In this document: piece after piece, positions 828-5,965 of the stretch
How positions within the stretch are numbered: the stretch's first letter is position 1
Layout of the letters: each line of letters begins with the position of its first letter
NCBI GenBank assembly: GCA_018897155.1
Contig: JAHILE010000054.1
Span: 1 to 6,549, forward strand
Direction: 5' to 3'
Length of the DNA: 6,549 nt
From: Nanoarchaeota archaeon
GTDB taxonomy: Archaea; EX4484-52; LFW-46
Position numbers and translations under genes: made by a program
The notes under the pieces: generated by a model
Database searches by the model: none
Seen by the model: the letters and a program-made list of their open reading frames with translations, nothing else
Told to the model about the DNA's origin: nothing

Positions 828-918
828 TCATGTAATTGCATTGCAAGCTTTTTTCAAGCTCTGCTTGAAAAATCTCGAACGAAAGTGAGAGAATTTCGCA
901 ATGCTCCGCATGCGAAAA
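828..918 (+). other. Non-canonical 59/60 intron in the tRNA-Gln T-loop
   Basis: This 91-nt insertion splits the T-loop between positions 59 and 60. The T stem acts as outer helix. TTC (822-824) pairs with GAA (914-916) as central helix, with A825/C913 unpaired. The bulges are AA^T and AA^T, and CATG (829-832) pairs with CATG (909-912) as inner helix. AAATC is repeated at both ends, so the boundary is chosen by structure. The interior holds a 10-bp hairpin (850-859/863-872), a bulged GNRA hairpin (874-889) and a third hairpin (894-899 plus 901-904, with 908-917) that competes with the BHB pairing. Confidence 0.8.
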
Positions 919-1055: not shown

Positions 1056-1258
1056 GCGCCGATAGTCTAGTGGTATGATATTGGCCTTCCACGGCTGCAA
1101 AATCAGCAGACATTTTTTGTTTCGCAAGAAACAAAAAAGCCTCAAACGCAAGTGAGAGGACTTTGGGCGACTACATCTTCGATGTAGTCACCTGTTTGGT
1201 GTCGCTGCTTCGCAGCAGAAGAAAGCCGACGGCCCGGGTTCAATTCCCGGTCGGCGCA
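1056..1258 (+). tRNA. tRNA-Gly (anticodon UCC) with a 132-nt intron
   Basis: The exons 1056-1091 and 1224-1258 give a 71-nt cloverleaf. The acceptor GCGCCGA (1056-1062) pairs with TCGGCGC (1251-1257); A1258 is the discriminator and CCA is not encoded. The anticodon stem is TTGGC (1081-1085) with GCCGA (1225-1229), and the anticodon TCC is at 1088-1090. The T arm is CCGGG-TTCAATT-CCCGG (1234-1250). The intron is at canonical position 37/38. A T-rich stretch follows at 1262-1267 and another at 1285-1297, either of which could terminate transcription. The gene ends two bases before the stop codon of the convergent minus-strand reading frame. Confidence 0.93.
1092..1223 (+). other. 132-nt structured intron in tRNA-Gly
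   Basis: The ends form a textbook BHB. Anticodon-loop CTTC (1086-1089) pairs with GAAG (1218-1221), the bulges are CA^C (1090-1092) and AA^A (1222-1224), and the inner helix is GCTGC (1094-1098) with GCAGC (1212-1216). Inside are an 11-bp perfect hairpin with a GCAA loop (1113-1138), a bulged GNRA hairpin (1141-1156), and a 9-bp perfect hairpin GACTACATC-ttc-GATGTAGTC (1169-1189). It is long for an archaeal tRNA intron. No protein of endonuclease size can be encoded in it. Confidence 0.88.
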
Positions 1259-3712: not shown

Positions 3713-3747
3713 ATGCGCTGTTCAAATAATGTTTATTGGCTGGTTTT

Positions 3748-4426
3748 ATGAAGTCCGAAGAGTGTTTGAACATAATTATTTCTGAAATCCTACGTTTGTC
3801 AAAGCAGGTTAAGTGCTTCATAATCGGCATCGGCGGCGGGGTGGGAGTCGGAAAAACAGCGCTTGTAGATGCGCTGAAAGTTTCTTTGGAAGAGAAAGGC
3901 AAAAAGGTTGCGATTCTTCATATGGATGATTTTTTGAATCTGCTGAAAAGCGCAGTTTTATCGAAACGGAATGGGATGAAAGGCATGTGAATTTTGGCGA
4001 GCTGTGAAGAGTGTTTGAGAGCATAAGGTGTGGTGATATTGAGGTAATAAAGCCCAAATATAATCGCGCAACCAGGCTAATAGAAATCGAAACGTTCGTA
4101 CTTTCAGGCATTGAGGTTATCATTTTCGAAGGTCTTTACACAATATTCTTTACACAATATCGAGCGAGGAGCGCCTCGGAAATTTTCTTGAGTTTGTCGA
4201 CCTGCCTGTTTTTATGTCCGCTGAGCTTTCGGATATTAAGCGGTGGCGGTTTTTACAGGAAGAAAAAAAGCCGCATCCAAGAAGCATGGAACGGATGGAG
4301 CGCCACTGGAATCTTGGCATTCTTGATGACTTGAACAGGAACATCCTTCCAACGAAAAGAAACGCTCGTTTCATAGTTTTTGTTGATTCTGCGCATACGT
4401 TCAAAATATCTATTCAACGCATATAA
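3748..4426 (+). pseudogene. Uridine kinase/PRK-like P-loop kinase, inactivated
   Basis: Three frames join into one protein of about 220 residues when three lesions are corrected. It belongs to the P-loop kinase superfamily that includes uridine kinase, phosphoribulokinase and pantothenate kinase, which phosphorylate a small hydroxyl substrate with ATP. Visible are Walker A GGVGVGKT (about 30-37), HMDDF, WDERHVNF, a KPKYNRAT segment, VIIFEGLYT, and a C-terminal NARFIVFVDSAH. The lesions are: a lost T in the T run at 3930-3935, shifting frame; an in-frame TGA at 4005-4007; and a perfect 14-bp tandem duplication (4133-4146 and 4147-4160) that shifts frame again. Removing one copy restores EGLYTISSEERLGNFLEF. 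It ends in TAA at 4424-4426. ATG 3748 is the preferred start; a TTG at 3736 is also in frame. The exact substrate cannot be told. Confidence 0.82.
4133..4160 (+). repeat. 14-bp perfect tandem duplication inside the kinase pseudogene
   Basis: TCTTTACACAATAT occurs at 4133-4146 and again, with no gap, at 4147-4160. Since 14 is not a multiple of three, the second copy throws the kinase out of frame. This looks like replication slippage and is unlikely to be a read error. Confidence 0.95.
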
Positions 4427-5853: not shown

Positions 5854-5965
5854 AGCGGGGTAGTAGTTCATAAAAAATAATACTTCTATGAACTCCCTAA
5901 AGCAGCCTGGAGTGCTCGTTGGGCTCATAACCCAAAGGTCGCTGGTTCAAATCCAGTCCCCGCTA
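5854..5965 (+). tRNA. Initiator tRNA-Met (CAU) with a D-arm intron
   Basis: The acceptor AGCGGGG (5854-5860) pairs with CCCCGCT (5958-5964); A5965 is the discriminator and CCA is not encoded. The anticodon CAT is at 5926-5928 in loop CTCATAA, closed by TTGGG/CCCAA. The three G-C pairs next to the loop and the A1:U72 pair mark it as the initiator. The T arm is GCTGG-TTCAAAT-CCAGT. The D arm is only complete if about 37 nt (5864-5900) is removed, joining G5863 to AGC at 5901 to form stem GAGC/GCTC (3' strand 5914-5917). The mature tRNA would be 75 nt. An intron in the single tRNA needed to start every protein makes its splicing essential. Confidence 0.9.
5864..5900 (+). other. Non-canonical D-arm intron in initiator tRNA
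   Basis: This 37-nt insertion lies between about positions 10 and 11. Its core is an 8-bp perfect stem AGTTCATA (5865-5872) with TATGAACT (5887-5894). A relaxed BHB can be drawn: the central helix GGG (5858-5860) pairs with CCT/CCC bases (5896-5898) including a wobble, T5861/C5895 do not pair, and the bulges are AG^T and AA^A. The exact ends are inferred from restoring the D stem. Confidence 0.72.

Follow-up and report, generated by a model that had tools for sequence, protein, structure and literature searches.

The tRNA-Gln(UUG) gene of a nanoarchaeal genome is interrupted twice, once at the canonical position 37/38 and once within the T-loop, and this raises the question of whether the second interruption is a genuine intron and, if so, where it came from. 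The gene lies on a stretch of 6,549 nucleotides (hereafter the window), contig 54 in an archaeal assembly of 1.43 Mb (G000, 96% complete), which was compared with one genome of the same genus, a sister species (G001, 89% complete), and with 32 genomes of the same order. The gene spans positions 733–932 of the forward strand and consists of exon 1 (733–770, tRNA positions 1–37 with the anticodon TTG, 100% match to G001), a canonical 36-nt intron at 37/38 (771–806, with an alignable 37-nt counterpart in G001), exon 2 (807–827, tRNA positions 38–59), the 91-nt T-loop intron (828–918) and exon 3 (919–932, tRNA positions 60–73). Excision of 771–806 and 828–918 gives a 73-nt cloverleaf in which all stems are paired, with a perfect T stem (CGAGG 817–821 and CCTCG 920–924) and a perfect acceptor stem (AGCCCCA and TGGGGCT), and the mature tRNA differs from that of the sister species by a single base (72/73 identical). 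The 200-nt precursor itself folds as a cloverleaf in which both introns are accommodated (−71.2 kcal/mol, z −4.96), a fold that none of 200 shuffled sequences equalled. ARAGORN reported no tRNA in the window, as is expected with interrupted genes, and an Rfam search detected the Gly and initiator Met tRNAs and missed tRNA-Gln. A whole-genome search with the mature sequence recovered two tRNA-Gln genes, UUG in the window and CUG on contig 16, and no second intact tRNA-Gln(UUG) gene in this 96% complete assembly; the original prediction had named such a second copy as grounds for calling the interrupted gene a pseudogene, and those grounds therefore did not arise.

As the motif AAATC is present at both intron ends (825–829 and 916–920), the junction slides on sequence alone, and it is the bulge-helix-bulge (BHB) motif together with the isoacceptor that fixes it between tRNA positions 59 and 60, where it had been placed originally. 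The BHB register sets the cuts at 827/828 and 918/919. Its 5′ strand (817–833, forward) comprises the T stem (817–821), the central TTC (822–824), a mismatched A825, the bulge AAT (826–828) and the inner helix strand CATGT (829–833), and its 3′ strand (908–924, forward) comprises GCATG (908–912), the mismatched C913, GAA (914–916), the bulge AAT (917–919) and the T stem (920–924). The geometry first suggested from the sequence agrees in the T stem as outer helix, the TTC/GAA central helix and the 3-nt bulges; the inner helix had been given as CATG/CATG and is CATGT/GCATG here. Compared with a canonical BHB, the two 3-nt bulges fit, whereas the central helix has three base pairs plus the A825·C913 mismatch in place of the standard four (a relaxed BHB); the isoacceptor has an A-U pair there. 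This isoacceptor, tRNA-Gln(CUG), is without an anticodon intron and has its 59/60 site occupied by a 20-nt intron with a perfect BHB (CGAGG-TTCA-AAA-TCGAA/TTCGA-TGAA-ATT-CCTCG, 4-bp central helix, 3-nt bulges), which provides independent support for the register. The 3-bp central helix is absent from the minimum-energy fold and forcing the full BHB costs just 1.9 kcal/mol; the minimum-energy fold shows the BHB as an internal loop both here and in the perfect-BHB isoacceptor. The box C/D guide RNA boxes UGAUGA and CUGA are absent from 828–918.

T-loop introns were screened in the tRNA genes of both genomes by complementarity of the T stem and the acceptor stem, the splice signal not being used in the search. 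Many were recovered, and the T-loop is a hotspot for introns here. Pairing of TTC with GAA (or GGA) in the 59/60 register was present in 26 of the 27 introns recovered from the two genomes (1/16 expected for each), and given that related copies are non-independent, the fairer figure is the 10/10 obtained in a subset chosen as largely unrelated sequences. Position 59/60 is a listed non-canonical site of archaeal tRNA introns, non-canonical introns are documented beside canonical ones, and the tRNA-Pro of P. islandicum carries three introns (PMC4090602). In Pyrobaculum calidifontis, 46 tRNA genes contain 71 introns between them (PMC8450103). The coexistence of the 91-nt intron with a canonical one is thus real, but it is less rare than had been claimed, since the combination is documented and T-loop introns are common in this genome. 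Elsewhere in the window the initiator tRNA-Met gene (5854–5965) carries an insertion of about 36 nt near position 9/10; its sister counterpart is interrupted there as well and has a 37/38 intron in addition. The hairpin repeats 3′ of tRNA-Gln (935–1045) look by eye like those behind other tRNA genes of the genome.

The genome encodes one EndA-family (PF01974) endonuclease and one RtcB, and no second PF01974 gene was found in it; the one endonuclease found, the type of which had been proposed as a check, is a single-unit protein. Its gene (L033, 1474–2064, reverse strand; relatives from the order, L181–L207) encodes an enzyme closest to the solved structures 1a79, 5x89 and 4fz2, and carries the extra residues K-Y/F-F-G-K ... 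EEK order-wide, at the location of the crenarchaeal CSL. The catalytic Tyr and His are retained in the 27 order sequences recovered, and the position of the catalytic Lys, which we take by our own numbering to be K156 of M. jannaschii, is Ala or Ser. Loops of the ASL and CSL types and their lysine have been tied to broad specificity, and the ARMAN epsilon2 and crenarchaeal (alpha-beta)2 endonucleases share with this enzyme an extra loop with a lysine ahead of the conserved catalytic domain (PMC12397907), unlike them being single-unit, order-wide and altered at the catalytic lysine. The loop being present and the catalytic lysine replaced, the enzyme may have a broad specificity. The loop was also considered as the cause of the intron burst and rejected, for it is order-wide while the strong copies of a second element family (see below) are confined to the genus.

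The 91-nt intron has relatives in the T-loop of tRNA-Glu(CTC) and the D-loops of tRNA-Val(CAC) and tRNA-Trp of the same genome, and in the D-loop of tRNA-Gly(UCC) of G001. Similarity to each of the four is well above background (z 5.0–9.2, 0/1000 dinucleotide-preserving shuffles), the remaining introns compared giving background scores. The family follows the pattern TCATG..ATTGCAT.GCAA..TTTT...CATGCGAAAA, and its members start with TCATG and terminate in GAAAA or in the similar GAAAT or CTAAAA. The likeness thus ends no more than about one base from the splice sites even though the flanking exons differ, the exact cut in the D-loop copies being uncertain by one base. When a family model was built from the four sequences that it matches, it gave these same four as its strong hits across the two genomes, each lying in sense within a tRNA gene, and the next match stood at E 0.05. 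The AAATC repeat was ruled out as a target-site duplication, as the D-loop copies with other flanks still end GAAAA(T).

Several of these sites are empty in the other genome. The tRNA-Gln(UUG) of G001 keeps its 37/38 intron (37 nt) and has an intact T-loop, and the tRNA-Gln/tRNA-Gly pair there lies, as in the window, next to the cdc6 and RNase HII region. The D-loop sites of tRNA-Val and tRNA-Trp are empty in G001 and that of tRNA-Gly is empty in G000, i.e., three of the four genes hosting relatives (all but tRNA-Glu) have a counterpart in the other genome that is uninterrupted at the corresponding site. The tRNA-Gly(UCC) gene of the window (1056–1258) has a 132-nt intron at 37/38 (about 1092–1223) made of hairpins, which its G001 orthologue lacks, having the D-loop intron instead; judging by this contrast, tRNA intron turnover is high. 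At the sequence level, the position, the register, the homology and the empty sites are all in place.

The interior of the 91-nt intron (838–904) is predicted to form a helix (838–844/898–904) and two hairpins (850–872 and 873–892). An alternative hairpin (894–917) uses bases of the BHB 3′ strand, as had been noticed originally and as the computed folds bear out, with a probability of about 0.33 against about 0.67 for the splice-competent fold. Of the folding switch proposed on these grounds, the shared bases and the physical possibility hold, but no positive support for the switching was found, the hairpin being a minority fold in silico. The idea that the interior was copied from a repeat abundant throughout the genome is supported only in part: outside tRNAs the closest match is a single hairpin of 33 nt (85%, E 2e-4), and 8-mer excess reaches 3.5-fold at most.

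A second element family (about 110 nt), outside the window, is frequent in the T-loops of G000 and G001, with no convincing copy in the 32 other genomes of the order. It is composed of a GGTTTC-pyrimidine tract, a purine tract, GACAARTCYGGGTRG, a second purine tract and a hairpin. In most copies purine tract 2 mirrors tract 1, the two changing together (permutation 0/2000). At L156:5899, L122:1502, L020:1567, L150:4882 and about 20 more sites, four sequence variants are seen in which this mirror repeat and the pyrimidine tract vary in concert, making it a candidate triplex. In both species tRNA-Ser(GCT) holds the element inverted (L017 in G000, L087 in G001), in a register that is still BHB-compatible. 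Outside tRNAs, all seven copies start directly after a TAA stop, in sense (L128, L130, L131, L136, L137, L139, L140), behind genes named by eye from their translations (transcription factor B, S15, HtpX, ATPase subunit F and others), and for the two tested the orthologous sister site is without the element. No counterpart of the stop-codon family or of the mirror repeat was found in the literature searched. We tentatively suggest, as one possible reading, that in this lineage tRNA introns are short mobile elements whose ends make up the splicing signal and which for that reason survive in essential tRNAs, and that the second family enters T-loops (at one locus inverted) and lands exactly behind TAA stops, its co-varying three-strand mirror repeat hinting at a triplex (RNA or H-DNA) for spread or processing. 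At the contig end, the window also holds an integrase-core (rve) transposase fragment (3–497), the 3′ end of which (419–558) matches the end of contig 16 (L096 1–140) at 100% identity, and a P-loop kinase-like gene (3736–4426) is split across several frames, owing to frameshifts or as a pseudogene.

The intron could alternatively be an ordinary T-loop intron that was inherited vertically and that the sister has lost, its likeness to others being due to convergence on BHB-forming palindromes. Position 59/60 is indeed occupied in both tRNA-Gln genes, and introns there are numerous in the sister too, yet the likeness covers the non-BHB interior (22/25 identical to the tRNA-Glu intron and likewise to the D-loop intron of tRNA-Gly in the sister), withstands the shuffling and joins introns at different tRNA positions, and the tRNA-Gln(CUG) intron at the very same position is unrelated, which leaves this explanation unlikely. 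We consider it less probable still that the insertion killed the gene, leaving a pseudogene or a dead transposon copy. The insertion of 91 nt in a universally needed loop and the imperfect BHB would be in keeping with such a fate, but the gene is the sole UUG-Gln gene found, its BHB register is kept, and its exons remain 72/73 identical to those of the sister against about 76% DNA identity in the flanking genes. Equally slim are the chances of a regulatory intron in which hairpin 894–917 toggles between a spliceable and an unspliceable form; the overlap with the BHB bases and the computed ratio of the two folds would allow for it, but other T-loop introns, several of them too short for such extra hairpins (20, 29 and 33 nt in the two genomes), sit in many tRNAs, and conservation of the hairpin was compared with the short 45-nt tRNA-Glu relative alone.

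Another alternative concerns the mechanism of movement alone and is compatible with a mobile, spliced intron: rather than by RNA reverse splicing, palindromic, non-autonomous and incidentally spliceable elements could be moved as DNA by an IS200/IS605-like Y1 enzyme. The genome has three Y1 (IS200/IS605-type) transposase genes (L142, L143, L144), target duplication is absent with the D-loop copies retaining their own ends, and the second T-loop element family is found in both orientations and behind stop codons. However, in the two genomes the family of the 91-nt intron is found in tRNA genes alone and always in sense, no link was seen between the transposases and the element ends, and the three of them show no obvious ends in common. 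Such transposition is conceivable, though we are inclined to doubt it. As to viral vectors for the elements, pattern matches in IMG/VR were at chance level or absent.

We consider that 828–918 is very probably a genuine spliced 59/60 tRNA intron of a small mobile family, and one that tRNA-Gln recently gained. The splicing endonuclease would cut it out in vivo at the slightly relaxed BHB and RtcB would seal the ends, the intron being tolerated because its own ends supply the helix and bulge for excision. In the genus, this family occupies two T-loops, in tRNA-Gln(UUG) and tRNA-Glu(CTC), and three D-loops, in tRNA-Val(CAC), in tRNA-Trp and, in the sister, in tRNA-Gly(UCC); tRNA-Gln probably acquired its copy after the two species split, and hairpin repeats may have enlarged it later. 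With two genomes of the genus sampled, gain rather than loss in the sister is argued for by homology to other introns and not by an outgroup with this family. The mobility of the intron and its recent gain are the main point, beyond the reach of a first reading of the window: if the intron is real, recent and related to introns at other sites and in other genes, then tRNA introns move between genes in this lineage.

As 59/60 is a listed position and intron transposition has been described for Thermoproteales (PMC4090602, PMC4033280), the phenomenon is of a known kind, the variant being new and in another lineage. Non-canonical BHB introns of archaeal tRNAs share with ours the position, the BHB signal and the co-occurrence with a 37/38 intron (PMC4090602), whereas in our case the T-loop predominates among the non-canonical sites seen and the central helix is relaxed (3 bp with A·C). 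The transposed introns of the Thermoproteales type (2010, as cited in PMC4033280 and PMC4090602) likewise comprise similar introns across tRNAs and positions with rapid gain, and here too similar introns occupy non-orthologous tRNAs at different positions, with empty orthologous sites in a close relative (Gln, Val and Trp in G001, Gly in G000). Set against what those citing papers relate, the present case has a single-unit endonuclease instead of (alpha-beta)2, orthologous presence and absence in two congeners, and a second family that also occurs behind protein genes and inverted. In Caldiarchaeum a young intron was similarly gained in a tRNA-Thr gene and a mobile element proposed, but there a single locus with an integrase is concerned (PMC3293823), and here several tRNAs, for which a link to an integrase or virus was not found. 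The mechanism by which archaeal tRNA introns spread was called unknown in a 2014 review (PMC4090602), and the reciprocal filled and empty sites in two congeners, along with one family at two tRNA positions, make this spread directly testable. Our findings further suggest that large intron bursts may be possible with a single-unit endonuclease bearing an extra loop, and not just with a heterotetrameric or epsilon2 enzyme.
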